From assembly GCA_022827265.1 (NCBI GenBank), contig JAJDTF010000131.1, positions 62,001 to 126,000 on the forward strand: a stretch of DNA of 64,000 nucleotides, in the 5' to 3' direction. Each line of letters starts with the position of its first letter. Position 1 is the stretch's first letter. The notes under the pieces are model-generated. The model did not search any database and was not told the origin of the DNA. It was given only the letters and a program-made list of their open reading frames with translations. Below are positions 1-55,168 of the stretch, one piece after another. The translations under genes were made by a program, and so were the position numbers. This stretch comes from Acidimicrobiia bacterium. Its GTDB lineage: Bacteria > Actinomycetota > Acidimicrobiia > Acidimicrobiales > Poriferisodalaceae.

Positions 1-2742
1 GGGGCGCTGCTGACCGACGGTGACTGCCCGCAGGTGCCGCATCGCAGCTTCGATCAGTTCGAGCGACTCGCTGCCAGCCGACTGCAGCAAAGACTGCTCG
101 AAGGCATCGGGCATTCCTGCTGCGCGCTGGCTCTGCCGCCGCCGACGAGCGAGCTGCCACAGCAGCATCGCGTCGCCGACTGCTGTTCCGGCCAGGCTGC
201 GGCCGACCGGAGAACTCTGGACCGGCGTGGTCAGCCCGCTGGGGGTGGTTCCTGTTACCGATGGCAGGAAGTGCGGCACCCGTGGGGCCTCGGCCTCAGG
301 CGGCCGAGGGGCTTCCGCTGTGCCCATGCCCGGCATTCCTGCGTAGGGCGCCAAGGGATCGGCGGGCGGCATCGTCGGCTCGTCGGGCCATTCGTCGAAT
401 GTGGGCGGCGGCTCGAGGGCGGGTGGAGGCTCCGGGGCGACGTAGGCCGTCGGCGCTTCCGGCGCGGGCGACGGCGCAGCGCCGACGTATGCGGACGGCG
501 GCTGCGGGGTCTCCGCCGCAGGATCGGCGTATACGGGAGGCGGGGTCTCCGCCGGAGGGACCTGGGCCGCGACTGGTTCGGCATCTGGAGGGTCGGCGGG
601 CTGTGGCTCGCGGTGCGGCGGTTCGGCGATCTGCGGCTCGGCATGCGCCGATTCTTCGATGCCGTGCTCCGCTTCGAGCGGTTCGTCCGGCGCCGGCTCG
701 GCCTCCGGCTCGACCGCTGTGTCTTCGACTGTCTCCGGGGCTGTGTCTTCGACGATTCTTGCCTCGGCGATGGAGGCCTCTTCGACGGCGTCGTCCGAAT
801 CAGCCGGTTCGATGGTGCCGATGTCTGCCGGTGGCGCCTCGACGGCTCCGGCAGGTATGTCGGCCGCTGCCTCCGAATCGAGGGTCTCGGGCTGCGCGTC
901 GTCACGCGGCGGCGCATCCAACGACTCGACCTCGAACGCGGCCGCCTCAGCAGGCTGCGGCTGCTCCGTCTGCATCGCCGCAGCGGCCTGGCCCGGCGCG
1001 GGTTCGGTGTGGTCGGGTGTGCTCCAAGTCGCCTCGTCGGGCTCAGACGCGGCTGGCGTCGCTTGCTCGTCTTCATCGTCGCCCGGCAGCGTCGGCGTCG
1101 GCATGGCGTCATCGGGCAGGGCTGCGACGCCCGCGGCAGGCATCGCGTCTTCTGCGGCTTCGGCCGATGCTGCTTCTCCGGCGCCCTCGTCGCCGGCGAT
1201 GTCATCGGGCTCTGAGTCGTCGCCGGCGTCGAGATCGGTGGTCTCGCCTTGTTCCTCGTCATGAGGCGCCTCGCCGTCGGGTGCCTCTGCTGGGGTCGCC
1301 GCGACCGCCGGCATCTCGAAAGCCGACGGGGGCGACAGCGGCGCAGCATCTTGGGATGGCTTCTCGGCGCTGTCGCCGCCGCGGGCAGCGATCTCGGCGA
1401 TGCCGGGCAATTCGTTGCCGAGCGGAGGCTGCGCGGCTTCGGGCAGCGCTCCTTGGGTCAGGCCGCGCCAGAACGGCACCACCTCTTCGGGTGTCGGCTC
1501 GCGGCCCCAAGCCGTGAACAGGAACGTCTCGGCGAGCGTCCAGAGGTACACAGGATCGGGGCGCCCCCACGGCAGCGGATCGCCGGGCAGGGCGAGCGCA
1601 GCACCCTCGGGCAGCAGTTCGTCCGGATCCAGGCCGGTGATGCCGGGATAGGCAGCATTCAGCGTGCGGAGCTCTGACCAGCGCTCAGGTGCATTGAGGA
1701 ACTGCGCTGCGACGCTGCGCAGCGTGTCCTCGGTGCGGGCGATGTAGTACCCCCGCACCGGCACCACCATGGGCGGCTCGTGCTGAGCGATCTCGCTCGG
1801 CGGCACGCTTGCCGGCAGTACGCCTTCGCTGTCGGTGAGGTCTTCCGGCGTCGCTGTCGAGCCGGATTCTTCTGGGTTTGGTGCACCCGTTGCATCTTCT
1901 GTGCCCAGGCGCTCGGGTTCCGGCATCGCATCGTCGTCAGTGGCGGGGATGTCCTCTCCCGTGGCGTCGTCGGATGTCTCGTCGGCGGACATGTCCTCGG
2001 TGGGCACGCCGCCGGACGATGCCGTTGCGCCTTCGGGGTCGGAGAAGTCGATGAGCGGCTCGGGCGAATCGGACCCGTGCCCGATGCCATCGGCCGTCTC
2101 GTCGAGGCCGATCCCCGGCTCCGAGCGCTCCGCTGCTGTCGGCGGCGCCCACGGCGACGAGTTGCCGTGCTGGCGGGGCGCACCGTCTGCTTCGGTTTCG
2201 GCGGGCTGGCTGGCCGGGGTGTCGCCGGAGGCAGTTGCGGATACGGCTTCGGACGCTTCGGCGGCTGGCGCCAGCGGGTCGTCGCCGGCTGCTGTCGCCT
2301 CCCCGTCATTTGACGGCGGGTCGAAGGGGCCTCGCATCCTCTCGGGGAGCGGCCCGGGGTCGGTGACTTGGCCGACTCGCTGAATCATGGGCACAGACCG
2401 CGTAGCTGCGGTGGCAGCGGGGTCTGCCGCTCTCGGCGGCGCGAACTCGTCGGTCGCCGTTCCGCCGCCGCCGGGGGGGCGTGCGGGCGTGGGGCTGTCG
2501 CTGAAGGAAGTGTCGAACAGCGGACCTGACTGCCGGTACCACGGCTCGCCGGTCTCGCTGCCGACTGCCTCGCTGCCGTCGACGGCGGTGGGTGCGGCGG
2601 GTTCGCTCAGCGGCAGCGGCGCGGCCGGTTGGCCGCGCTGCTCGCTGCGGCGCCCGGCACGGCGCCTCGCCGACGCATCGTGCTCGCGCGCTGCCTTCGG
2701 ACGCCGTCGGAACAGTCGGGAGAAGAAGCCCTGTCGAGCCAT
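1..2742 (-). CDS. LysM-like acidic, proline-rich protein, 3' end outside window
   Basis: The frame opens at an ATG (first base 2742) and stays open to the window edge, so about 914 codons are visible and the C terminus is missing. It begins with a basic stretch (MARQGFFSRLFRRR) and then becomes long, acidic and Ala/Pro-rich. About residues 330-387 form a LysM-like module (RGYYIARTEDTLRSVAAQFL, then a helix and a closing LALPGDP strand), followed by a helical part with LAETFLFTAWGREPTPEEV. After a second acidic spacer, a helical segment near residue 850 contains WQLARRRRQSQ. LysM usually binds glycan; no signal peptide is visible, so its location is uncertain. It shares its promoter palindrome with pilus genes. 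LysM proteins of this kind are found near actinobacterial Tad loci, but a direct role in the pilus is inference. Confidence 0.8.
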   Translation of the reverse strand, partial: MARQGFFSRLFRRRPKAAREHDASARRRAGRRSEQRGQPAAPLPLSEPAAPTAVDGSEAVGSETGEPWYRQSGPLFDTSFSDSPTPARPPGGGGTATDEFAPPRAADPAATAATRSVPMIQRVGQVTDPGPLPERMRGPFDPPSNDGEATAAGDDPLAPAAEASEAVSATASGDTPASQPAETEADGAPRQHGNSSPWAPPTAAERSEPGIGLDETADGIGHGSDSPEPLIDFSDPEGATASSGGVPTEDMSADETSDDATGEDIPATDDDAMPEPERLGTEDATGAPNPEESGSTATPEDLTDSEGVLPASVPPSEIAQHEPPMVVPVRGYYIARTEDTLRSVAAQFLNAPERWSELRTLNAAYPGITGLDPDELLPEGAALALPGDPLPWGRPDPVYLWTLAETFLFTAWGREPTPEEVVPFWRGLTQGALPEAAQPPLGNELPGIAEIAARGGDSAEKPSQDAAPLSPPSAFEMPAVAATPAEAPDGEAPHDEEQGETTDLDAGDDSEPDDIAGDEGAGEAASAEAAEDAMPAAGVAALPDDAMPTPTLPGDDEDEQATPAASEPDEATWSTPDHTEPAPGQAAAAMQTEQPQPAEAAAFEVESLDAPPRDDAQPETLDSEAAADIPAGAVEAPPADIGTIEPADSDDAVEEASIAEARIVEDTAPETVEDTAVEPEAEPAPDEPLEAEHGIEESAHAEPQIAEPPHREPQPADPPDAEPVAAQVPPAETPPPVYADPAAETPQPPSAYVGAAPSPAPEAPTAYVAPEPPPALEPPPTFDEWPDEPTMPPADPLAPYAGMPGMGTAEAPRPPEAEAPRVPHFLPSVTGTTPSGLTTPVQSSPVGRSLAGTAVGDAMLLWQLARRRRQSQRAAGMPDAFEQSLLQSAGSESLELIEAAMRHLRAVTVGQQRP

Positions 2743-19509: not shown

Positions 19510-21189
19510 TCACGCCGTTGCTCCCTGGTCGGGCTGAGGCCGGTTCCGGTCGGAGTCGTCGGCCGCCGTCTCGCCGAAGAGATGCGCTGCCCATGTGCGG
19601 AACGAGCCGCTCGGCAAGCTGGGCGCCTCAGCAGGCGGCATGGGGAGCGAGTCCGGGGCGGGCTGCGCCGGCTGGTGGGGCGCCTGGGCCGGCTGGCCGT
19701 AGTGCAGCGGCGTGCCGTCGCCGCTGTAGCCGTAGGCCGCCGGGTCGTGCGCCGGCGCGGGTTGCTGCGGCTGGGGCTGCGGGTAGCCGACGGCCGGGTG
19801 GCCGGCTGCGTACTCGGGACCGGTGTCGCCGTGCGGCGGCTGCATGTGCGGCGGGGCTTCCGGGGGGAACGGCACATGGCCAGCGGCAGCCGAGGCAGGC
19901 CCGCCGGCTGGGTATTCCTGCAGCGGGTGGCCCGGCGGAGGGGGGTAGCCCGGCTGCTGTTCGTACCCCTGCGGGGGGTAGCCCGGCTGCTGTTCGTACC
20001 CCTGCGGGGTGTAGCCGGGCTGCTGTTCGTAGCCTTGGGGGGTGTAGCCGGGCTGCTGTTCGTAGCCTTGGGGGGCGTAGCCGGGCTGCTGTTCGTAGCC
20101 TTGGGGGGCGTAGCCGGGCTGCTGTTCGTACCCTTGGGTGGCATAGCCCGGCTGCTGGGGATACTCCCGCTGCTCGTGACCCGGCTGCTGGAACTGCTCG
20201 TAGCCGTCTGGGGGCCGCTGCGCATGGGGCGTCGAGGAAGGGGCGGCGAGGGCGGCGTCTGGCGGCGGGCCGCCGTGGTGCTCGACTGCCGCTGCAGGCA
20301 CCGTCGGCACGGCTGCAGCGGCGTCTGGCGGCGGCGCATTGTGGGCCGGATCGTCGGCGCCGGCGGCAGACACGCTTCGGTCGGCCTCTGCGGGGCTCTC
20401 GCCGTCGGCGGCCTCGTCGATGGCCGGCCGGTTCGCCGCAAGGCGTGCCCGCGGTGCGGCGGCGCTTGCTGGGTGTGCGAACTCGTACAGCCGGTCGGCG
20501 AGTTTTTCGAGGCTGCCGCGCAGCTTGCGCGATTTGCGCTTGCCGCGCGCCATGAACATCGACAGGTCAGTGCCGCGTTCGGAGCTGAGGTCGACGCTGC
20601 CGACGAAGGTCAAGCCGTGATTGGCGTGCCACTCGTCGTCGCTGAGAGGGCTCGATCCGATGGCCGTCACCAACCCGAGCGGTCCGGGTTCGGAGGCTTC
20701 TGTGACCAGAGCGCCCTGGAGGTGCTCGAGGCTCGGGACCTGCGCGTTGTCGCGGGTGACCACCAGCACAGCAGCGGCGCAGGTGGTCAGTTCCGACGTG
20801 CGGGCTTCGGGTGTCAGGCGGCCTCCGTCGACGATGATCCCCATCTCGCTGTCGGAGATGTCTCGCAGCTCCTCGCCGAACCGTGCGAACTTCTCGGCGA
20901 CTGTCCGCGCCCCGGACGGGCTCGACGGAGTGGGCATGACATGGAAGTCGTTGAAGAGGACGTCCTGCGCGTGCTCGACGAGGCTCGCGGCGGTCACTGG
21001 TTTGCCCGCTGCCATGAACGAGGCCGTGCCGGGAGTGAACTGGATGCCGAGCTTCTGGCTCAGCGAGCCGGCGGCAGCGTCGGTCTCGATCAGCAGCACC
21101 TGGCGGCCCGACGACGCCCACTGCGCAGCCAGATAGATCGCGGTGGTGGATGCTCCCGGTGACCCATACGTGCTGTAGACCGTCAACAT
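19510..21189 (-). CDS. TadZ/CpaE-like protein with atypical P-loop and GYEQQPGY repeats
   Basis: 559 aa. Residues 1-235 resemble the ParA/MinD-type ATPase domain of TadZ/CpaE, which marks the pilus site at the cell pole. The P-loop reads [10 protein letters not shown] (8-17): no lysine is present, so ATP hydrolysis may be weak or absent. A basic patch follows ([18 protein letters not shown]). From about residue 260 the protein is disordered: Ala/Pro-rich, then six consecutive copies of the 11-residue unit [11 protein letters not shown], then more Pro/Gly/Gln. The ATG at 21189 lies eight nt after the promoter palindrome that overlaps the upstream stop codon, so the gene may be expressed both alone and with cpaB. 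Confidence 0.85.
19943..20157 (-). repeat. Six 33-bp tandem repeats in the TadZ-like gene
   Basis: Units of 33 bp encode GYEQQPGY followed by AP, TP or PP and Q. Neighbouring units differ mostly at the eighth and ninth codons and at silent sites. Copy number should vary between strains through slippage or recombination. Confidence 0.9.
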
Positions 21190-43033: not shown

Positions 43034-43469
43034 ATGACCATGACTGATCGCCCGCCGCCGCGTCGGCCGGGCACACCGCCGCCGAAGGGGGGGGGGGTCA
43101 CAGCCGCCCTTTAGGCCTACGGCGGCCGGTACCGCTACCGGACCGCCGAAAGCAAGCTTCGCAGCCGCAGCAGCGGTGCTCGCGTTCACGCTGTTCAGCT
43201 TCTGGCTCGGGGCACGCGCCGAAATCGGCATCGCCAGCACCGGCCGCGAGGTCGACTTCAACACGCTCGGATACGTGGTCGGCTGCTTTGTCAGCATCTG
43301 GATGCTGTACCTGTTCTTGAGGGCAGACAGGCAGGCCCGTTCCACGCTGCGCTACAACGACTGGCCAGGCATCGGCGCCCGGGCTCTCATCGGCTGGCTG
43401 ACGCTGTGCAGTTGGTTGGGCGGCGCGCTGCACCTGTGGTTCTGGGCGCAGGATCTCACGAGGCCGTGA
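43034..43469 (+). CDS. Small membrane protein split by an 11-G tract
   Basis: From the ATG at 43034 the frame encodes MTMTDRPPPRRPGTPPPK, then enters a run of 11 G (43087-43097) and stops at a TAG just after it. With 10 G the frame would instead run on without a stop (SQPPFRPTAAGTATGPPKAS) into the membrane protein whose ORF is open from 43176 (VLAFTLFSFWLGARAEIGIA, then LGYVVGCFVSIWMLYLFLR and ALIGWLTLCSWLGGALHLWF), about 144 aa in all with three membrane helices. The C-terminal end overlaps the vWA gene start (GTGA), so the gene heads that operon. Either the tract is phase-variable and read here in the off state, or it is a length error in the sequence. Confidence 0.7.
43087..43097 (+). repeat. 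Poly-G tract (11 G)
   Basis: An uninterrupted run of 11 G inside the 5' end of a membrane-protein gene. Such tracts change length by slipped-strand mispairing. Removing one G restores one long reading frame. Confidence 0.95.
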
Positions 43470-46462
43470 CGGCCGCACATCGCACTCGTCGCCTGCTCCT
43501 CGCGGGAATGGTGGCACTTCTCGCCGCCTCAGCAGCACCGATGCTTGAGGTCACCTCGGCTGGCGCACAAGCGAGCAGCGAGCCCGGCGCGGGCGGTTAC
43601 ACGCCATGCGAGAGCGGACAGCAAGACATCGACTTGCTGGTCATGATGGACGCCTCGGGCTCACTCAATGCGCCTGCGTCAGGAATCGACAGCGACGGTC
43701 GCTTGCGCCGCACGGCGCTACAGAGGTTTCGCGAAGAACTCACGAGTCTGCTGCAGCGCCTGCCGCCCGCCGATGCCGGCAGCGTTCGCATATCGCTGTG
43801 GCGCTTCGAGAGCGATGTGACGCGCATCGCCGGCTTCGACCAGGCAACGGGCAGTCACCCATCCAACGCTCAGATCGAAGCATCGCTCGGTGAGCCGGTC
43901 GGCGGCGGGTACAGCTACCGCACCAATCACACCGACTATCTCCAGGCCCTGCGCGCTGCTGAGCGGGCGTTTCTGGACGAGGGCACGCCGGGCGCATGCC
44001 GTGTGCTGCTGTTCTTCAGCGACGGCCTGTACGACCCGACTGGCAGGCCCACGCTCGAGCAGGCCGATGAGCTGCGGGACGAGGTATGCCGTGATCTGAA
44101 ACTGAGCTACGAGCGTGCAGGCATCAACACCTTCTCGATCTTGCTCGGTCAAGCCTTCCGAGGCACCGTCGGCGGCTCGGAGCCGAGCGATGCCGACGAG
44201 ATCGACGCAGAGATGGCCGAATCGTCCAAGCAGATCCTGCGCGCGCTCACCGGCCACGCAGACTCGCCGCTGGTGCGGGGCCTGCCGTACTCGCGCCGGT
44301 TCGACTGCGAACGCTGGAGCGATGTGCAGCCCGACGACCGCGACGGGGCGATCATCGCCGTCGATGATCTCGATTCTCTGGCCATCCAACTGCTCGAAGT
44401 GGCTGAGACAGCGGCTCGCCAGCTTGTGGAGTGGAGGGACTGCGGAATTGCGCCTGGCAGCGGAGGACGCTCGGGTCCGCTGCCGGCGGGCAGATACATC
44501 GAGACCATCGTGGCTTACCCGCGCGGATCGCTCATTGAGCAATACGAGATCGTCACGGCTGACGGGCAGACGATCCGTGGACCCGGTGACCTCGACAGGC
44601 CGCTGTATCTCGAAAGCGACGTGCTGAGTGGCCTCGAGGCGGGTTGGACGCTCGAGTTCCTCACGGACGGTGGCAGCGGCGGCATTGAGGTCGCCTGCTA
44701 CGCCAGGAGAGCCACCCCTCCAACGGCCGATGTCGAGGGCACGGTCACTGACAGCGATGAGCAGCTGCTGCCCGATGTGGTCCGCAGCGCCGCCGGTGCC
44801 GACTCGCCGCCGCTCGACGGCGTGCGCATCGTCGCCGAGGCGCCTCCCGGTCTGTGCGAGCAAGGACCCGATGTGTGGCCGGATGAGCGTGTGCGCGATT
44901 GGTGGTGCCGCAGTGACGGCACCGTCGTGTTCGAGCTGCACCCGCTCGAGTGCCAGCAGTCATACGACCTCGACAAGCCGCTGGTGTACCGCTTCGAGCC
45001 GGCCTATGCCGAGGGTCTCTTCGGTCCTGGGGAGGTATCGCAACAGGTCCGCATCGAAGTAGCTGGCTCGGCCCGCCGTCTCTATGACTGCTTGGGCGCG
45101 CCTCTGCTGACGTGTGCAGATGACGCCGGTGCCACAGCCGGGGACGATGCTGCCGAGGCGCAAGATGGCAGCCCTTCAGCGGACGCGGTCGTGCTGACGT
45201 TGGTGATCGAACCCGACAGCCACGAACTGCCGCGCACGCCGCTGTCGGGTGTCACTGCGTGCCGGCTGTACCCACCCCAGGACGGCGTCGTGACCCTGCG
45301 AGCGCACTGGCGGCCTGACGCCAGCGCCGGGGACTTGCCCGGCGAGCTGGACTGGCGCTTCGACGGCGAGCACTACGGCAGCGAACTCGAGGGTGTTCTG
45401 GACGAGTCAGGACGAGAGCTTCGGCTCGGACCGGGCGGTGGCCCGGAAGGCGTGGTGCTCCGCTTCGTCACCACGGATGAGCTCGCGAATGCCGATTGGC
45501 GGATAGTCGGCGTGATCGAGCTAGTGCCCACCTGGCAGACCGGCGTGGCCGACCCGGCGATCAACGCAGTCGCCGACGCGCAGATGGCGGCCCAGCGCAC
45601 CGCAGTGAGAGCGGATGCCTCGTATGCGGCCCGCAGCGACTCGGGCTTGGCACGCTGGCTGACCCTGCTGGGGCTGCTCGCCACATTGCTGCTCAGCTAT
45701 GTGCTGTTCTGCCTGGCCTTGGCATCGACGTTCGGCTTGCCGGACCCCCGCCGATTCTGGTGGCGACACGCGGTGCTGGGGGTCGAACGAAGAACCGGAT
45801 CGAGCTACTCGTTCGTGAGCGGCGCCGTGCCTACGCTGGCCGCAGCGCCGGCCGAGGCGGTCCACAGCCAGCGCGTCGGCAGCAACCGAAGGCCTCGATA
45901 CACGGAGTGGCGTGGTCCTGCCTCACAGGCGGGGACCGACCGCATCAGCGTGGTTCTGCGCCGCTCGCCCAAATTCTGGCTGTTCGGCTTGCTGCGCGGC
46001 CCGTGGAGCGAGGTGCGGTCCGACGGCCGGGCCGTGGCAGTCCGGCCCAAGGGCCACAAGCGGTCTCGGCAGCCGACCAGAGCTGCTTCGCGAGCAGAAT
46101 TCGATCGTCTGATCGTGGTGGGCGCGCCGCGTCGAGACGGCAGCGGCGCCACCTCAGCCTCGGTCTGGGTGGCGCAGCCTAAGGACGGGCGGTTCTCGTC
46201 GTTGGAACAGCGCGATGAGCGCGAGTTGGCAAACCTGCTGAACGACGCCGCTCAGCAGAGTGAGGCTGAAGTCGACCTCGGCCCCCGCAGCGATTTCGTG
46301 ACGGATGCCGGAGCGACGCCCGCACGAGGCGGCGGCGCGGTGCCGGCTGGCGAGCAACCGCAACAGCACGTTGATCCCGAGGGGCCTCGCAGCGAGGAGC
46401 GGCCGCAGGCACCTCCCGGCCGACCTGAGCGACCGCCCCCGAGGCGGCGCAGCCCGGAATGA
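43466..46462 (+). CDS. Secreted/membrane vWA-domain protein of the tubulin-like island
   Basis: 998 aa, GTG at 43466 overlapping the previous stop. A signal peptide (RRLLLAGMVALLAASAAPML) precedes a von Willebrand A domain: DLLVMMDASGSLN holds the metal-site DxSxS (residues 62-66), with the expected Thr (YRTNHTDYLQAL) and Asp (LLFFSDGLYDPTG). The following ~450 residues look like beta-rich extracytoplasmic domains with paired cysteines. One membrane helix lies at ~730-755 (LLGLLATLLLSYVLFCLALA). The C-terminal ~240 residues are basic, presumably cytosolic, and end in a Pro/Arg tail. The topology would link an external metal-dependent adhesion domain to the cytosolic tubulin-like protein encoded next. 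Confidence 0.88.
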   Translation: MTAAHRTRRLLLAGMVALLAASAAPMLEVTSAGAQASSEPGAGGYTPCESGQQDIDLLVMMDASGSLNAPASGIDSDGRLRRTALQRFREELTSLLQRLPPADAGSVRISLWRFESDVTRIAGFDQATGSHPSNAQIEASLGEPVGGGYSYRTNHTDYLQALRAAERAFLDEGTPGACRVLLFFSDGLYDPTGRPTLEQADELRDEVCRDLKLSYERAGINTFSILLGQAFRGTVGGSEPSDADEIDAEMAESSKQILRALTGHADSPLVRGLPYSRRFDCERWSDVQPDDRDGAIIAVDDLDSLAIQLLEVAETAARQLVEWRDCGIAPGSGGRSGPLPAGRYIETIVAYPRGSLIEQYEIVTADGQTIRGPGDLDRPLYLESDVLSGLEAGWTLEFLTDGGSGGIEVACYARRATPPTADVEGTVTDSDEQLLPDVVRSAAGADSPPLDGVRIVAEAPPGLCEQGPDVWPDERVRDWWCRSDGTVVFELHPLECQQSYDLDKPLVYRFEPAYAEGLFGPGEVSQQVRIEVAGSARRLYDCLGAPLLTCADDAGATAGDDAAEAQDGSPSADAVVLTLVIEPDSHELPRTPLSGVTACRLYPPQDGVVTLRAHWRPDASAGDLPGELDWRFDGEHYGSELEGVLDESGRELRLGPGGGPEGVVLRFVTTDELANADWRIVGVIELVPTWQTGVADPAINAVADAQMAAQRTAVRADASYAARSDSGLARWLTLLGLLATLLLSYVLFCLALASTFGLPDPRRFWWRHAVLGVERRTGSSYSFVSGAVPTLAAAPAEAVHSQRVGSNRRPRYTEWRGPASQAGTDRISVVLRRSPKFWLFGLLRGPWSEVRSDGRAVAVRPKGHKRSRQPTRAASRAEFDRLIVVGAPRRDGSGATSASVWVAQPKDGRFSSLEQRDERELANLLNDAAQQSEAEVDLGPRSDFVTDAGATPARGGGAVPAGEQPQQHVDPEGPRSEERPQAPPGRPERPPPRRRSPE

Positions 46463-46529: not shown

Positions 46530-49500
46530 ATGTACAGCAAGTTCCTGTTCGTAGGACTCGGAGGATCGGGCGGCAAGACGCTTCGCTTTCTGAAACGTGA
46601 GATTGGGCGCTGGCTGGAAGCGAACAGTGCCGACACCCGCATACCGCAGGCGTGGCAGTTCCTCCACATCGACACTCCCACGGTTCCCGACGGCCAAGAG
46701 ATCAACGACATCGCACCCCAGCTCGACGACGACGAGTACATGGGCCTGATCAATGCTGGTCTGCCATTCACGGCGCTGGCGAACATGCTTGACGGCGACC
46801 CGCACCTGCGTCAGGAGTTGCGAACTTGGAGGGTGGAGCCGGCGGGCCTCGGAGTATCGGTGGACCAGGGCGCGGGCCAATTCCGTGCCGTGGGGCAGAC
46901 GGTAGCGATGGCCTATGCGAAGCGGATCCGCGACAAGCTCGAAGAGCGCGTGCGGCGCCTGAGGGGGCCGGGCGCGCAGAGCGAGCTGGGCGAGCTGTAC
47001 GACCGGGTCGGGCCGGCGGGCGACGGTCACGCCGGAGCCGACTCGAACATGTACATCGTCGTCATCAGTTCCCTCGCGGGCGGCACTGGCGCGGGGCTTC
47101 TGAACTTGGTGTGCGACTTGCTCCGCGCCATGGAGACCCCGGCAGGCGACAGCATCTTCGGTCTCTTGTACACGCCGGAGGTGTTCCACTCGCTCGGCAA
47201 AGCGGTGACCGGCGGGGTGTACCCCAATAGCCTGGCGGCGATCTGCGAAATGCTGAACGGCCAGTGGTGGCAGGGCAGCGACGTGGGAGCGCCGTCCATC
47301 GCGGCCCCGAAGCAGCAGGCCGTGCTGAGCCGAGCCGGCTTGCCGAAGCCTCAGGAGCGCAGCGGGCCCACGTACCCGTTCCTCGTCGGACGGGTGGCCG
47401 AGGGCGGCATCGACCACGGCACGCCGGACCGGCTGTTCGAGATGACGGGCCGCTCGCTGTTGTCGTGGGTGACCGACATGACGGTGCAGTCACGCTTTGT
47501 GGCCTACACCTCAGGGAACTGGGCGTCGTCGGCACTGGCGCACGATCAGGGCGACGTGCTGGTCGATGCAGGGGCGACGCACGAGCAAGGCCTGCCGTGC
47601 TTGTCGGCTCTCGGCTTTTCGCGCCTGTCCGTGGGCGGGGAGCACTTCGAGCGCTATGCGAAGGAGCGCCTCGTCACGGACGCGCTGAGCCACCTGGTGC
47701 GATATCACACGAATTCCGCCGAAGCGGTCGCGGTGGCTGAGCGCCTCGACACCGAGGACCCCGATGTGATTCGGCGCGCTATCGCCGAGGATCACCGGCG
47801 TGCGTTCTTGCACGAAACCCGGCTCGTCGAGGTGGGACCGGAAGACAACGAGATCATCGACGATCTCCGCCCGGCGCGTGATGGCGAGCTGTCCGCGGAG
47901 TTTGAGCGCCGAGTGCGGCAAAACGCGGGCCTTGGCCAGTACGACAGGCTAGGTGTCGAGGAATGGCGCAAGTACATCACCGACGCCATCGGCGAGGCTC
48001 GCAGAACCTACGAAGTGGAGTACCGCCGCGGCCTGGAGCATTCGACTGATGTTTGGGTTTCCGCCGTGCAGGTGCGCGTCATCGACGCGGTGAAGCGGCG
48101 CATCGGCATGCACGGGTTGCTGGTGACCGCCGAACTGTGTTCGCAGGCCGGTCGCTACCTCACCGAGGAGGTAGCCGTCGATCTCACCGAGAACGATGTG
48201 GTCCGGTATCGGCGCTGGGCCGCACAGGCGGCGGATATTGTCAACGAGGCCCTTGAGGACGCCAAAGGCAACGTGCAGAGCGACGACGCACGGCTGGAGG
48301 AGGCGGTTTCGCAGGGGGTGAACGCTGCCGGATATGCGGGCGATGCCCTGCTGTGTGGCCAAGCGGCAGCGCTCGCTACCCAAGTCAGCGACAGGATATT
48401 CGTACCGCTGTCGCGGGCGCTGCGCGACGCCCACGAAGTGGCAGAGGATGATGCACGTCGGGCCGTCAGCTGGGTCCATTGGGACGACGAGATTCCACCC
48501 GCACACGTTCGGCCGCCCGTCGGCGATTTCTCGCTGATTGATCCCGACGACTACCCCGGCCACTTCGCCGATCTGCTGAGCAAAGACGTCGGCGAGGCAG
48601 ATGGGCTGCAGGCGAAGCGCGAGCAGGCCCGCAGCGACATCATCTCGGGTTCGTTTCTCGATGAGCCCGCGGCCGCTGCAGGCGCGGATGTCACTTCCTG
48701 CTTGACCGTTGCGGCGTCGTGGTTTCCGGTGTTGGACTCGGCAGGCACTCAGGCGCCGGCCGAGCTGCGAGTCTCGCTGTCGGCCGGCCGCGATGAACTC
48801 GCCGAGCGAGCGCACGCGTGGCTGCGACGCCCCGGTTCGCCTTGGGAGAGCTTCTTGGGGCGCTCGGTTCGCGAATTCGTCGGCTCGACAGATGCGTTCG
48901 ATGCGAAAGCGATCCCCGAAGCCGAGGCGCGCCAGAACCGGTCGCGGTTCATCAACCAGCTCAACGCTGCCCTGAGAGCGGCGGCGCCGCTGATCAATAT
49001 CGACGATGGCCTGCTCGGACTCGTCCACCCCAATACCGCCCTGAGCGGGCCGCGCCTGCAGCTCAGCACCATGCCGTTGGCCGCGCACCCGATCACCGAG
49101 GATCTCCGCGCCGTGCTGTCCGGGGCCGGCATCCAGGACGACGAGATCGAGGCGGCGCTCACCAGCGATGCGTCGGTAGACCACATCGACATCACCAGCG
49201 CACTGGGAGCACCCGTCTCAGTCCTAGCGGTGGAATCGCTGTTGCGTCCGATTTCGGAGGGCTGGTTCGGGCTCGACTCGGTGGGGCAGCGCAACGCATT
49301 CTGGGCCCGCAGGCGTGCGCAGCCGCTCGAGTCGTTCGTTCCTGCCCCGCAGGCGTTAATCCGTTGCATGGTGCGCGGATGGTTCACGGGCCGTTTGCTC
49401 GGGTTGATCAAGGACGACGACGGCTCATGGGCCATCCGGATTCCCCGAGATGGCGGCTACCGGGTTTTCTCAAGCGACACGCTGTCGCGGCCCCGCGCCG

Positions 49501-50003
49501 TCGGCGACCGCGACGCACTGCCGCTTGTGCTCGAAGCCTTGGCGCTGGCATACGTGGACGTAAGCCGCGTCGGCACGCTGGGGCCGCTGGTTCCCTACGT
49601 CGAGCTGCGGGAGCTAGGACGCTCGAAGCCCCACGGCGGGCTGCTCGGCTACGAATCGCTGGCGCCCCCGCTCGACCGCTGGGCGAAGGATGGGCGGCTC
49701 GACGCCGAGGCGGCCGACGACGCGGTGCTGAACTCTGACGCCGCTCGCGAGGTAGTGAGCGCCTCGACGACAGCGGAGCGTTTGCCCGGACTCGCGTCGC
49801 TCTGCCGCGATGTCATTGCGAGCTACGAGAAGAGCTTCGCCGAACTGCAAGCGCAGTGGCGGGCGCAGCCGGCGCTGCTGTCCACCGCACCGCACTGGAG
49901 CGGCCTGTGGGAGCGCCACATGAGCCCGGCGCTCAACGACATTGCCCAGGCCGCGGACCGGCAAGCGCAGCAGCTCGCCGATGGCGCTGGGCCACTGATG
50001 TGA
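46530..50003 (+). CDS. Tubulin/FtsZ-like GTPase (Tubulin_2/FtsZl-1 type)
   Basis: 1157 aa, ATG after AGGAAGGATCAC. The N-terminal ~350 residues resemble the divergent bacterial tubulin-like family: MYSKFLFVGLGGSGGKTLRF (GLGGSGGKT, residues 9-17), FLHIDT, and the GTP-binding loop VVISSLAGGTGAGLLNLVCD with GGTGAG at 184-189, corresponding to the tubulin/FtsZ signature GGGTG(T/S)G. Further family-like parts are FGLLYTPEVFHSLG and YPNSLAAICEMLNGQWW. The remaining ~800 residues are mostly helical and of unknown fold. No membrane segment is seen, so it should be cytosolic. FtsZl-1 proteins are known to be encoded next to vWA and membrane proteins and were proposed to remodel membranes; the role here is inferred from that. 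Confidence 0.88.
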   Translation: MYSKFLFVGLGGSGGKTLRFLKREIGRWLEANSADTRIPQAWQFLHIDTPTVPDGQEINDIAPQLDDDEYMGLINAGLPFTALANMLDGDPHLRQELRTWRVEPAGLGVSVDQGAGQFRAVGQTVAMAYAKRIRDKLEERVRRLRGPGAQSELGELYDRVGPAGDGHAGADSNMYIVVISSLAGGTGAGLLNLVCDLLRAMETPAGDSIFGLLYTPEVFHSLGKAVTGGVYPNSLAAICEMLNGQWWQGSDVGAPSIAAPKQQAVLSRAGLPKPQERSGPTYPFLVGRVAEGGIDHGTPDRLFEMTGRSLLSWVTDMTVQSRFVAYTSGNWASSALAHDQGDVLVDAGATHEQGLPCLSALGFSRLSVGGEHFERYAKERLVTDALSHLVRYHTNSAEAVAVAERLDTEDPDVIRRAIAEDHRRAFLHETRLVEVGPEDNEIIDDLRPARDGELSAEFERRVRQNAGLGQYDRLGVEEWRKYITDAIGEARRTYEVEYRRGLEHSTDVWVSAVQVRVIDAVKRRIGMHGLLVTAELCSQAGRYLTEEVAVDLTENDVVRYRRWAAQAADIVNEALEDAKGNVQSDDARLEEAVSQGVNAAGYAGDALLCGQAAALATQVSDRIFVPLSRALRDAHEVAEDDARRAVSWVHWDDEIPPAHVRPPVGDFSLIDPDDYPGHFADLLSKDVGEADGLQAKREQARSDIISGSFLDEPAAAAGADVTSCLTVAASWFPVLDSAGTQAPAELRVSLSAGRDELAERAHAWLRRPGSPWESFLGRSVREFVGSTDAFDAKAIPEAEARQNRSRFINQLNAALRAAAPLINIDDGLLGLVHPNTALSGPRLQLSTMPLAAHPITEDLRAVLSGAGIQDDEIEAALTSDASVDHIDITSALGAPVSVLAVESLLRPISEGWFGLDSVGQRNAFWARRRAQPLESFVPAPQALIRCMVRGWFTGRLLGLIKDDDGSWAIRIPRDGGYRVFSSDTLSRPRAVGDRDALPLVLEALALAYVDVSRVGTLGPLVPYVELRELGRSKPHGGLLGYESLAPPLDRWAKDGRLDAEAADDAVLNSDAAREVVSASTTAERLPGLASLCRDVIASYEKSFAELQAQWRAQPALLSTAPHWSGLWERHMSPALNDIAQAADRQAQQLADGAGPLM

Positions 50004-53000
50004 GCACTGAAAGCGTGTCGGTCGAACCGGGCAGGGAACCCACTGCCATCACCGGTGCACTCGCGCTGCGCGCGGCAGGCGGCGGGCACCGCATCGTCCT
50101 GGTACTGCGTCACGCCGACGACGCAACCGTCGCGCTTGCCCTCGACGTGTGGGCGGAACTATCGGGGGCATCTCAGTTGTCGCCGTTCATGTGCGTTGAA
50201 CACCGCCCCTTCGCGGAAGACGACCAGACGCCACTGGACTTGGGTCGCTCGACCCGGCTGCTTGCGGGCGGTGCGTGGACGCCGGTCGGATTGATGTACA
50301 CGTTGCACGGCCTTGGCGAACTCAGCCGGGTCGACATTGTGACTGCGTGCACTGCGTTGCTCGACCAAACTCAGCAGGCAGAGCTGGCACGGGCGGACGT
50401 CATGCTGCGGCACGACCTTCGAAGAGTCATGCCTGAGGCCACGCCAGTGTCCTCTCATCGGGTGTGGATACCCCACTACGGGGATGCGGCGATGGCACCC
50501 GATGCCGCATTTGCGAGCCCTGAGGCAAACAGCGCGCTGGTGGTGCTGCCAGTCGACCGGCAGTTTGAGCGAGCCGCGGCCATGCCTGTGAGCGGTGCCG
50601 GCCCTGACGATGTGTACGCCTGGCATGTGGCGGTTGAGGTCGCGTCCCTTGCCGGCCTGTGGTCAACGATGGACGGCGCTCCGCTGGAGTTCGTCGAGAC
50701 GGCCGCCAGCGGCGTGGGCCGACCGCTGGTGCGACTGGTGCGCTCGATGTGCCGCGCCGCTCGCATCCATACGCCATCTCCGGAGCAATCGCTTGACGGG
50801 ACAGGCTTGCTGCCGTTGACGCCAGGCCTGCTGCCGGCCCCTGACGACGCGTTCATGGTCAAGGCCGCTGCGCCGCACATATACCCGTCGACGTTCCGGG
50901 TGTTGACAGGTACGCAGGGCGACATCGGCGCCGGCACGCGCACTGAAGACGGCGACGACGCGCGGCACAGAATGTTGCGCGGTTTGATCCCGCTCTCGGA
51001 GGAGGTGCACGTCCGCCGTCTCGCAGTCGAGACGATCAGCAGTGTGCTCGAGCGCGATGATGCTGCTGCAGACGCAGCGTCACAGCTCGACGACTACATC
51101 GCGGACACCGTCGCGATCGCGTCATGGACGGAGCCGCTCGCCCGAGACGTGGCTCTTGGCGTTGAGGTTTCCTCGACTGCAGGTGCTGAGGCACAGGCGT
51201 TGCTTGACAGCACTCGTGCTCCGGTGTCGATCGAAGCGGTGCCGGTACAGGGCTGGGAGGAATTGCTCGATGGCGTGTTCGGCATGGCCGACGCGACACA
51301 CGCGAGCGAGGGAATCCGGGCTGCTGCGACAAGTGCCCGCTATGTGGTGGTCGACCCTCACGCCCTCGCTCCCGACGCAGACGCGCTGACTACGGCGCTC
51401 TCGGCGCTCGATGGTGATGAGCACCGGCATGCCGACGGTCGCTACAGGAAGGCCGACTCTGCAGGCGACCTCGTGGATCTCGACCCTGGTGATCTTCGGT
51501 CGGACGACGAGATGAGCGACGCGATCGATCTAGCCGACCTAGCGGAGGACGCGGCGCCGGGCATGGTGCAGCGAGCAGGCCCAGACCAACATGGCAAGGC
51601 ACCGCTGCTCATCGAGGTGACGGGCCAATTCGATGCAGAGATCGAGCGGTCCGAGCGCGATGTCGAGCGCCAGATCGAGCTGCTGCACGCCCGCATGCGC
51701 CACGAGAACCGGCCTGAACCGGGCGTCACCTCGTTTGTGGCATACGCACTGTTGGCATCGGTGCTGATCGGCATCGGCTCGCTGTTGACGCTCACAGGGT
51801 TGCGTGAAGTGATCACGCCTGACCGGCTCTCCGAGCAATCCAGGGTTGCCTCGTTCCTGCTGCTGGCGCTGGTCGCGACCTTGCCACCGGTGCTCCGGCT
51901 GACCCCGAGCCGAAGCTGGTCGGCACAGGTTCGTCTCACCCTGGTGGCCGCGATCTACGCCGGAAGCGCCGCTGCGGTGATAGTCGCGGCGCCGGCAATC
52001 GAGGAGAGTCCCCTCGACCGGCCGGGCCAGTGGCTTCCCGCTGGGGCGGTGGTGCTCATCGTGATGTCATTGGCAATCACTGCGTGGATCCGTGGATTCG
52101 TCGGTGACCGGGCGCTGTTGGGCCCCTTGGCGGCACTGGTGGGGGATCGCACTGCCGGGGCGGTGCCGTTTGCCTACGCCTTCGTCATGGTGGTCGCCGT
52201 ACTGAACTTCGATCAGACCGCGCCGGCGGCCTTCGAGAACCGGAACTGGCGGTTGCTCACGGTCCTGCTGGCAGTTGCAATCGCGGTCGCGATAGCAACG
52301 GGGGGTTTGGTTCGCCTCGTACGCCGGCGCGATCGGCGACAGGTGAGCGAATGGCGACAGCGCATCGATGAACTCGTCGATGGGTGTGAGTTGGGCTCGG
52401 CGCGCACGGCGGCGCTTGAGGTGCTCAAGGCCCACTGGCTGACGACAGCGGCCGTGGCGGCTCGGCTCGTGCATCGCCCATTCGGGTCGCACCGTGCGGC
52501 AGCGGCGCCGCACGACCCGGAGTCCGCCGTGCGCAAGCTGCTGATGTTCGACCTCGAGCTCACTGAGGAGACCCGCGACGCTTATCTCGGCGAGCTGTTG
52601 CCTGAGCTCGCGTCGAGCGGCTGGCTACGCGAGCAATACCGCCGGATGTCGTCCCAATTCGTCAATAGCGAACGGTCGAGATTCGGGATCGGCGCCGACG
52701 GCTACATGCCGCCGCCCGAACACTGCACGTACCCGATGTCGCTCGAGTCGGTGATGGGCGCTGGAGGCAGCGGGCCTCGGTGGCGATTCGCAGAGCGTGT
52801 GTACGCCGGCGACTTCGATTCCGTGCTGCACGAAGCCGCGGAAGATGCACTGAGCCGGGCCATGGCGGCGACATTCATGTCCGACCAGATAGCCGTGTCG
52901 CTCGGTCCCGCCGACAGCGGCCGCCAGACGCTTCCGCAACTGCTGGGTGAGCTGCTGCCTTCGGATGAGGCGCGGCTGCCTTCGGGCACGCTGCCCCCGA

Positions 53001-53269
53001 GCACGGAGCCCTCTCCCGAATACCAGTCCTTGGTTTGGTGGCCGGAGGCGGTATCGATGCCCGCCGAAAACCCGCCAACTGCGCATCAGTGTCGACACTT
53101 GCGGCAACAAGGAACGATTCTGTTTCACGCTGTGCGTGTGGACATTTCCGAGCCCGTCGGCATGGAGCGTGTGACTCCGATCAGCGAGCCCGATGTGACT
53201 GACCGGGTCGGTGCGGGCGATTCGGCGACGCGCGGTTCGACCGGCGCACCTGCCGATCCGCTGATGTGA
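50000..53269 (+). CDS. Large multi-pass membrane protein of the tubulin-like island
   Basis: 1089 aa, GTG at 50000 overlapping the tubulin-like stop. No recognised family. The first ~570 residues are soluble with acidic patches. About six membrane helices lie in the middle: SFVAYALLASVLIGIGSLLT, SFLLLALVATLPPVLRL, LTLVAAIYAGSAAAVIVAA, GAVVLIVMSLAITAWI, VPFAYAFVMVVAVLNF, and LLTVLLAVAIAVAIATGGLV. A basic loop (RLVRRRDRRQVSEWRQRIDE) and a ~300-residue mainly helical cytosolic domain follow. Overlapping starts imply co-translation with the tubulin-like GTPase, so it is a candidate membrane anchor or channel for it. Confidence 0.8.
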   Translation: MSTESVSVEPGREPTAITGALALRAAGGGHRIVLVLRHADDATVALALDVWAELSGASQLSPFMCVEHRPFAEDDQTPLDLGRSTRLLAGGAWTPVGLMYTLHGLGELSRVDIVTACTALLDQTQQAELARADVMLRHDLRRVMPEATPVSSHRVWIPHYGDAAMAPDAAFASPEANSALVVLPVDRQFERAAAMPVSGAGPDDVYAWHVAVEVASLAGLWSTMDGAPLEFVETAASGVGRPLVRLVRSMCRAARIHTPSPEQSLDGTGLLPLTPGLLPAPDDAFMVKAAAPHIYPSTFRVLTGTQGDIGAGTRTEDGDDARHRMLRGLIPLSEEVHVRRLAVETISSVLERDDAAADAASQLDDYIADTVAIASWTEPLARDVALGVEVSSTAGAEAQALLDSTRAPVSIEAVPVQGWEELLDGVFGMADATHASEGIRAAATSARYVVVDPHALAPDADALTTALSALDGDEHRHADGRYRKADSAGDLVDLDPGDLRSDDEMSDAIDLADLAEDAAPGMVQRAGPDQHGKAPLLIEVTGQFDAEIERSERDVERQIELLHARMRHENRPEPGVTSFVAYALLASVLIGIGSLLTLTGLREVITPDRLSEQSRVASFLLLALVATLPPVLRLTPSRSWSAQVRLTLVAAIYAGSAAAVIVAAPAIEESPLDRPGQWLPAGAVVLIVMSLAITAWIRGFVGDRALLGPLAALVGDRTAGAVPFAYAFVMVVAVLNFDQTAPAAFENRNWRLLTVLLAVAIAVAIATGGLVRLVRRRDRRQVSEWRQRIDELVDGCELGSARTAALEVLKAHWLTTAAVAARLVHRPFGSHRAAAAPHDPESAVRKLLMFDLELTEETRDAYLGELLPELASSGWLREQYRRMSSQFVNSERSRFGIGADGYMPPPEHCTYPMSLESVMGAGGSGPRWRFAERVYAGDFDSVLHEAAEDALSRAMAATFMSDQIAVSLGPADSGRQTLPQLLGELLPSDEARLPSGTLPPSTEPSPEYQSLVWWPEAVSMPAENPPTAHQCRHLRQQGTILFHAVRVDISEPVGMERVTPISEPDVTDRVGAGDSATRGSTGAPADPLM

Positions 53270-53335: not shown

Positions 53336-55168
53336 TTGGCTGAACCTCCGCGCTCGCCGCGCAGTCGCCGCAACCCGTTGCGGCCTGAGCCACTGCAGCG
53401 CCGACCGCCGCCTAGGGAAGACAGCAGCCGCACGACGCGACGTGCCGCGGGCGACGCGCCTCCGCGCACGCAACGGCCCGCCGCTGCACCAATCTCGCGG
53501 CGCTCGCCATCAGATGCTTCCACACGCTTGTCCAGCGGGCGGAGGCCGGCATTCCGCGCGACACGGAAACCGACCCTCGCCTTCACAGCTTTGGCCGTGC
53601 TGATTGTCGTCATCGTCGTGGTGAGCCCTCGGGTGTTCGGTGGTGGTGACCCGACTGATGTTGGGCTTGCCTCGCAATCCGCTCCTGCGAGCGGCGTGAC
53701 CTCGTGGCCACGTGCTGAGACTGATCCGACCCAGGCGCGAGCAGCCCCGGACGACGGCTTTCCCTCAGCATCTAGCGGCGCTGAAGCGTCAGCCAGTCGG
53801 CTCGCAGCCGCTGAGGCCGCACCGAGCGCTGCCCTCCTCGACACGGAAGAACGCGAGTTGCTTGTACACGCTGCCGTTCCCGACTGGGAAGTGCTCGCGC
53901 AGTCGGTAGTGCAGCTGATCGCGCCGGATTGCGAGCAGGCTGGCTCGGGAACGATCATCGGAGACGGTCGGCTCGTCTTGACGAACTCGCACGTACTGCA
54001 CGCCGGTGGAGACGGCCCCGTCTGCGAGGTCTACGCGGGCCTCACTCGACGTTTCGATGCGTCACCGGATGACTGGCAGCCCGCTGAGCTCGTGGCGGAT
54101 GATCTCAGCCGGGACCTCGCAGCGGTGCGCCTCGCCGACACGCCGACGGGCATTCACGCGCCGCTACAGGTCGAGGGAGGCCAGCTCGCGCTAGGCGACC
54201 AATTGACGATTCTTGGCTATCCCGGCTTCGGCGACACTCAGGACACACTGACGTTCACCAGCGGCAGGTTCTCCGGCACGACAACCAGCGCCGAGGGACT
54301 CCAAATGCTCAAGACCGATGCGCTGCTGGACTCAGGCGTGAGCGGCGGCGCAGTGTTCGATCGGCGCGGTCGTCTCGTCGGTGTTGCCACAGGCGGCTAC
54401 GAGGGCGAGGGTGGCACGCTTGGCGCAGTGATCCCCGGCAGGGAGGTGTTGCGCTTCCTCGCTGAGCATGGACTGCAAGCCGGAGTCGGCGCTGCTACGT
54501 CAGGGGCGACGGCGTCATCATCATCGGCGATCATTCCGACCGTCACTTTCCCTGAGGCGTCTGTTCGTGACCCGGAGGCTGAGGCTGCCGATCTTGAGCG
54601 ACGCCGCAGCGTGATCGGCCTGTTCGAGCGTCTACGCGTCGAAACCGAGCACCGTGCCGGCTATCGCCGCGATGATCTCTTCCCTGGGTGGCTCTACAGC
54701 GGAGGTCTATCGACCAGGGACCGCGTGCTCTCCGAGGAGCGACGGTCTGACGGCTCGTGGCTCTCGGCGTATGACGCATCGGTTGTGGCCGAGTCGTCTG
54801 AGTTGGATATCGATCATCTCGTGCCGCTGGCAGAGGCGTGGGAGTCTGGCGGGTACGAGTGGAGGGCCGACACATGGACTCGCTTCGCCAACGACCGCAC
54901 GGACCCGCGCTCGCTGATCGCCGTGAGCGCAACTGCTAACCGGAGCAAGGGCGCGCGGGATCCCGCCGAATGGTGGCCGCCGAGTTCGTCGTACCGCTGC
55001 CAGTACGCGGCCGACTGGGTCGCCGTCAAGGCCCGCTGGGACCTGGCAGTGGACTCCGCTGAACAGGAATCGCTTGACGCGCAGCTCGGCCAATGCACCG
55101 GCGCCGATTTCGACTTCGCCAAGCCGGTGCCGGCTCGAGTCCGGTTAGTGCTCGGACCGGCAGAATGA
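53336..55168 (+). CDS. Membrane-anchored trypsin-like protease fused to HNH nuclease
   Basis: 610 aa from a TTG at 53336 after CAGGACACC. Residues 1-78 are Arg/Pro-rich and cytosolic, and ~79-100 form one membrane helix (LAFTALAVLIVVIVVVSPRV). A linker follows, then a trypsin-like (DegP-type) protease with the full triad: His219 in LVLTNSHVLHAG, Asp260 in LSRDLAAVRL, Ser336 in DSGVSGGAVFD. No PDZ domain follows; instead residues ~420-605 form a secreted-type HNH nuclease of the DUF1524-like group: ELDIDHLVPLAEAWESGGYE (Asp493-His494) and ANRSKGARDPAEWWPPSSSY (Asn535). Both enzymes would face outward. A short overlapping ORF from GTG 53266 may couple translation to the upstream gene. Confidence 0.88.
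   Translation: MAEPPRSPRSRRNPLRPEPLQRRPPPREDSSRTTRRAAGDAPPRTQRPAAAPISRRSPSDASTRLSSGRRPAFRATRKPTLAFTALAVLIVVIVVVSPRVFGGGDPTDVGLASQSAPASGVTSWPRAETDPTQARAAPDDGFPSASSGAEASASRLAAAEAAPSAALLDTEERELLVHAAVPDWEVLAQSVVQLIAPDCEQAGSGTIIGDGRLVLTNSHVLHAGGDGPVCEVYAGLTRRFDASPDDWQPAELVADDLSRDLAAVRLADTPTGIHAPLQVEGGQLALGDQLTILGYPGFGDTQDTLTFTSGRFSGTTTSAEGLQMLKTDALLDSGVSGGAVFDRRGRLVGVATGGYEGEGGTLGAVIPGREVLRFLAEHGLQAGVGAATSGATASSSSAIIPTVTFPEASVRDPEAEAADLERRRSVIGLFERLRVETEHRAGYRRDDLFPGWLYSGGLSTRDRVLSEERRSDGSWLSAYDASVVAESSELDIDHLVPLAEAWESGGYEWRADTWTRFANDRTDPRSLIAVSATANRSKGARDPAEWWPPSSSYRCQYAADWVAVKARWDLAVDSAEQESLDAQLGQCTGADFDFAKPVPARVRLVLGPAE

Follow-up and report, generated by a model that had tools for sequence, protein, structure and literature searches.

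A long G tract as a candidate phase-variable switch in the opening gene of an FtsZ-like/vWA operon from the Acidimicrobiia

We analyzed a 64,000-nucleotide stretch of contig JAJDTF010000131.1 (positions 62,001 to 126,000) from the Acidimicrobiia assembly GCA_022827265.1; this stretch is called the window, and all positions refer to it unless a locus is named. The window contains an operon on the plus strand with the gene order small membrane protein, vWA protein, FtsZ-like protein, large membrane protein and trypsin-like/GmrSD_C protein. The body of the small membrane protein (43098..43469) has two strong hydrophobic segments and a weaker third one, as judged from hydropathy, and its frame terminates at TGA 43467-43469. 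This stop overlaps the GTG (43466) that starts the next gene, and the overlap reads GTGA (43466..43469). The second gene (43466..46462) codes for a secreted or membrane vWA protein with the MIDAS sequence DASGS; its VWA_2 score of 24.7 bits lies below the 27-bit cut-off. The next gene encodes the FtsZ-like protein (46530..50003; Pfam Tubulin_2, PF13809, E 2.2e-35), and the last two encode a large predicted membrane protein without a Pfam match (49937..53269) and a trypsin-like protease, identified by Pfam, with a GmrSD_C C terminus (53336..55168). The operon is flanked by tgt-secD-secF on one side and by rel-hisS-aspS on the other; the names come from sequence reading, that of secD from Pfam. 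A PADLOC search for a defence role of this island gave no match for the first four ORFs, and the protease ORF matched the RT-Protease and PDC models via its trypsin part.

The gene content resembles the FtsZl1/vWA operons described by Makarova and Koonin in 2010, which contain lineage-specific membrane proteins and for which a role in membrane remodelling was proposed (PMC2875224, accessible part). Shared with these systems are a Tubulin_2 gene beside a vWA gene with DxSxS, here intact as DASGS in the same operon, and the additional lineage-specific membrane proteins. The FtsZ-like loop reads AGGTGAG and differs at two positions from the GGGTG(S/T)G quoted in the accessible part of that study. 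A kinase, a divergent GTPase and OmpA are frequent but not required operon partners according to the same text; the locus differs in that none of the three turned up when its five ORFs were scanned against Pfam. It also differs from the systems covered there in that the small membrane protein comes first and that its reading frame depends on a homopolymer.

This homopolymer is a run of exactly 11 G at 43087..43097 on the plus strand, as the original prediction had stated; its first G lies 53 nt after the A of the upstream ATG at 43034, and the run is thus situated in the 5' part of the coding sequence. Translation also confirmed the frame arithmetic that had been proposed. With the 11 G of the assembly, the ORF from the ATG (43034..43112, plus strand) comprises 26 codons followed by TAG and yields the peptide MTMTDRPPPRRPGTPPPKGGGVTAAL (26 aa). 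With 10 G it runs for 144 aa into the small membrane protein, and the end of the body overlaps the vWA start. When the tract length was altered from G7 to G13, single-base changes moved the small gene in and out of frame: 7, 10 or 13 G restored it (143, 144 and 145 aa, each ending in the small membrane protein), 8 G gave a short product of 25 aa, similar to the 26 aa of the assembled form, and 9 or 12 G led into the third frame (94 and 95 aa).

Runs of this length are rare in the window, where the longest other G/C run has 7 bases. A run of at least 11 appeared in 16 of 200 simulated windows of order 1 and in 2 of 200 of order 3. The genome as a whole contains 16 G/C runs of at least 9, and nine of them have at least 11 bases; the corresponding expectation is about 0.6, a rough value scaled up from the order-3 rate of 2/200. 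As a separate observation, positions 19862-20103 of the window hold six G6 runs in one minus-strand coding frame, which are spaced about 30-80 bases apart and look repeat-like.

In the assembled form the body frame offers no ATG, GTG or TTG up to and including two conserved proline codons (PP, 43143..43148) ahead of the first membrane segment. The first body-frame start codon past the tract is GTG 43176..43178, and the ORF from this GTG has no Pfam match. As the main start this codon was rejected: it lies downstream of the PP and of part of membrane segment 1, both of which are conserved and would be removed. The PP is present in 15 of 15 rows of the alignment of homologues (A4); the case that would have spoken against an upstream coding part, namely that all homologues start at 43176, was therefore not found. 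In-frame starts at or before the PP are absent from the window and from two of the homologous loci (genomes G007 and G426). In G419 and G082 the start scan did not find the PP anchor, and in-frame starts are present in both.

Within the genus, three of the ten remaining genomes have an orthologue of the small protein (G001, G005 and G007). A search of 39 genomes of the family added one more distant copy (G030), and G005 also has a paralogue. All three sisters carry the vWA gene and then the FtsZ-like gene downstream; synteny upstream was scored on tgt and secD, and both lie upstream of the operon in G001 and G007 as well. A comparison of tract length and frame with the sisters had been suggested as a check, and its outcome partly supports the prediction. 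In two of the three, G001 (143 aa) and G005 (146 aa), the same ATG leads in frame into the membrane protein. The window misses the frame by one base; G007 misses it by a different amount, and its body frame also contains a TAG. Measured from the last common CCG to TCA/TCG, the spacer has a different length in each of the four species: 13 nt in the window, 9 in G001, 17 in G007 and 18 in G005.

The claim that the proline-rich N terminus and the sequence after the tract make up one protein is borne out by G001 and G005, which read both parts in frame; MTMTDRPPPRRPGTPPPKGGGVTAAL corresponds to the proline/arginine-rich N terminus of their small membrane proteins. Identity across species is 0.88-0.94 over the 51 nt that precede the tract, as opposed to 0.60-0.73 over the 60 nt upstream of the ATG. 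Variable columns at codon positions one, two and three number 2, 2 and 5 before the tract (third positions 5/9, P 0.145), which is weak evidence when taken alone because the stretch is short; they number 6, 5 and 13 after it (P 0.028) and 8, 7 and 18 when the two parts are pooled (third positions 18/33, P 0.0097). In the body the numbers are 13, 6 and 37 (P 5.6e-7). Together, these sequence comparisons indicate that the pre-tract stretch is genuine coding sequence of the membrane protein. Between the window and G001, third positions hold 6 of the 7 post-tract changes, and the frame break in the window therefore looks recent. The situation in G007 appears to be different; no tract length removes the TAG from its body frame, so that in this species the N terminus seems to have been lost and not to switch.

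Profile searches extended the family to 27 loci, consisting of the window, the sisters, the copy in G030, the paralogue and the new loci found in 397 genomes of the order (9), in 51 genomes of the family to which G255 belongs (5) and in 395 genomes of the class (7). The small gene ends in TGA in all 27 loci. In 25 of them its stop overlaps a start codon that lies in the frame of the following ORF (the exceptions are G166 and G261), a DxSxS protein follows in 25 (exceptions G591 and G082), and both features occur together in 23.

Five of the 27 loci have runs of at least 9 near the start of the small gene. Besides the G11 of the window, these are C13 in G255 (L095, 1460-1472), C11 in G426 (L109, 1407-1417) and C12 and C20 in G423 (L110, near the contig end), all in the proline-rich N terminus, and a G9 in G218 (L102, locus 1472-1480) that lies five bases before the ATG. 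The locus in G426 mirrors the window with a GTG start, a C11 and an excess of one base. In G255 the frame break is only probable, because an in-frame GTG lies 115 nt upstream of the tract. From the genome-wide density of runs, at most 0.24 near-start runs would be expected, and the probability of at least four, without counting the window, is about 1e-4. This recurrence does not, however, call for selection, since peptides rich in Pro and Gly often yield runs of at least 9 when their codons are resampled: the probability was 0.13 for the window, 0.45 for G255 and 0.38 for G426, and 0.26, 0, 0.17 and 0.06 for four relatives without a long run. The control is partly circular, in that some residues of the resampled peptides (window, G255 and G426) are encoded by the tract itself. 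The recurrence was thus not accepted as a demonstration of selection for the tract, because composition alone often gives such runs. The long runs appear to be largely explained by the Pro/Gly-rich peptides, and as far as composition can tell they show an N terminus that is prone to slippery runs and are not evidence that the runs are selected. Apart from this, another locus of the window's own genome (L082, contig C37) has a G11 at locus position 2001, a few bases before an ATG; its run and that of L102 occupy the position of a ribosome-binding site, where the spacing could affect translation.

The 15 other tracts of at least 9 in the same genome were scored for codon usage on both flanks. 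Three of them are flanked on either side by clear coding sequence of one strand; the remaining 12 are not. One of the three, a C10 on contig C13, is in frame and the other two switch frame. The first of these (L084; contig C56, 43632-47641) is a DNA methyltransferase that is broken at a C10 tract (locus 2001-2010, minus strand); according to Pfam, N6_N4_Mtase positions 1-181 precede the tract, positions 176-219 follow it in another frame, and an HNH domain comes next. The second (L085; contig C88, 8511-12523) is an HmaA-like helicase, identified by PADLOC and Pfam and broken at a G13 tract (locus 2001-2013); positions 414-740 of the HmaA model lie before the tract and 1038-1130 after it, in two frames, with Pfam matches to Helicase_C and NOV_C (NO VEIN). 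In the sister genome G010, 17 tracts of at least 10 were scored among the matches listed, which covered 50 of its 56 ten-G windows, and five of these tracts had clear coding on both sides: one is in frame, three switch frame and one keeps its frame with a stop between two ORFs. The frame-broken genes of G010 (L123, L124 and L133, tracts of 12-13 nt) encode a periplasmic binding protein (Peripla_BP_6 1-61 / 65-338) and two permeases, one for xanthine/uracil, whose tract sits close to the N terminus, and one of the MacB/FtsX type. Over both genomes, and among the matches listed, the frame is broken at 6 of 9 coding tracts of at least 10 when the window is counted and at 5 of 8 when it is not; the 11-G run itself fails the 200-nt two-sided coding score, its N-terminal part before the tract having only 53 nt. 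Breaks of this kind at long runs fit slippage, and random errors of assembly length would look alike.

The mismatch repair background was examined as well. A search for MutS_V gave no match in any of the 11 genomes of the genus, and of 14 control genomes 11 had one; NucS was found in the window's own genome. NucS of M. smegmatis does not repair indels of 1-2 nt, which the authors of that study connect to mycobacterial phase variation (PMC11551767, accessible part). The repair context, with NucS present and MutS absent, thus supports slippage as the favoured process.

The best explanation, whose chances we consider evenly balanced, is that the 11-G run is a hypermutable homopolymer and serves as a phase-variable switch, captured in its OFF state. 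The run lies within the coding part of the gene that opens the FtsZ-like/vWA membrane operon, and slippage of the replicating strands, presumably in living cells and in a reversible manner, would alter its length. Lengths of 7, 10 or 13 G would be ON and give the full small membrane protein, while other lengths would be OFF because of an early stop or a wrong frame; the assembly would hold the OFF form with 11 G. Stop/start overlaps usually make translation of the second gene depend on that of the first. Because the vWA start sits within the overlap with the small-gene stop, the early stop at 43112, or any other loss of the small-gene frame, should also reduce translation of vWA, and the run would then act on the operon start. 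Any benefit of switching is something that we infer. Points that speak against this reading are the TAG of G007, the Pro/Gly-rich peptides, by which the tracts require no selection, and the position of 12 of the 15 other long tracts of the genome outside clear coding sequence. What had been predicted as a possible phase switch is upheld in part, with respect to the coding upstream part, the starts of the homologues, the differing spacer lengths and the repair context; cell-to-cell variation of the tract, and with it switching itself, is presumed.

The main rival to a phase switch is an error of sequencing or assembly, which we hold to be rather unlikely; the true genome would then have 10 G throughout and the gene would always be intact. 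Long G runs are error-prone in sequencing, and the window comes from a single draft assembly of 163 contigs. The sequences with which it was compared are also all single assemblies, one genome per species and probably short-read metagenome bins, and the proportion of 6 out-of-frame cases among 9 coding tracts of at least 10, among the matches listed, is also expected from random length errors. Such errors are nevertheless not general, because those 6-base runs of the window that are flanked on either side by clear coding sequence stay in frame in 11 of 11 cases, and the differences between species in spacer length and in the adjacent bases are genuine.

The frameshift could also be permanent, with an N terminus that is dispensable or a gene that is decaying and perhaps translated weakly from GTG 43176. 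The out-of-frame G007 with its TAG would fit this, as would the conservation of that GTG in the four species; but the N terminus and the body still evolve as coding sequence between the window and G001, body and vWA gene alike are open and conserved, and the GTG start would sacrifice the PP found in all 15 homologues together with part of membrane segment 1. We regard a fixed loss as quite unlikely. Slippage during expression is in our view improbable as well. Here RNA polymerase or the ribosome would slip on the run, and a single DNA length would yield a fixed mixture of products. The cell could then tolerate tracts that are out of frame, and poly(A) slippage, which is described for Buchnera (PMC2831843, accessible part), provides a precedent. 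The shift that would be needed is, however, -1 in the window and G426, +1 (or -2) in G255 and G007 and 0 in G001 and G005; to judge from these frames, no single programmed direction is conserved, because the needed shift differs between species.

A phase-variable switch of this kind would have relatives in known systems. Homopolymer phase variation in mycobacteria likewise involves indels in mononucleotide tracts of coding sequences with NucS present and MutS absent (PMC11551767, accessible part), and the ESX-1-associated phase variants of M. tuberculosis are an actinobacterial example with homopolymeric tracts (PMC11898584, accessible part). Unlike the cases covered in those two texts, the present one concerns an 11-G tract in a membrane-operon gene of uncultured Acidimicrobiia and was studied in single assemblies. 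With the homopolymeric tracts at the 5' ends of prokaryotic genes (PMC2831843, accessible part) it shares the position near the 5' end and the early loss of frame. In that survey, as far as its accessible part goes, poly(A) and poly(T) are over-represented and poly(C) and poly(G) generally under-represented; the tracts described here differ in being poly-G/C of 10-13. A literature search for Acidimicrobiia together with phase variation led to PMC13082232, where the terms are unrelated in the accessible text. Searches on FtsZl1, on Tubulin_2/von Willebrand and on actinobacterial poly-G phase variation gave no report of the locus among the papers listed, in a literature set that covers subscription journals thinly.

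As a wider and more doubtful proposal, which we offer tentatively, uncultured Acidimicrobiia with NucS and without MutS may keep poly-G/C contingency genes. These would include anti-phage-type genes (the methyltransferase and the HmaA-like helicase) as well as the gene that heads the FtsZ-like/vWA operon, and the operon would be switched as a unit via the conserved overlap. If the switch is real, an FtsZ-like/vWA membrane operon would be turned on and off at random, as happens in surface and defence systems, and this would hint at such a role for it. Homopolymer phase variation, which is well studied in pathogens, would then extend to an uncultured actinobacterial class that lacks MutS, and supposed 'pseudogenes' with long G runs in genomes of this kind may in fact be genes under such a switch.
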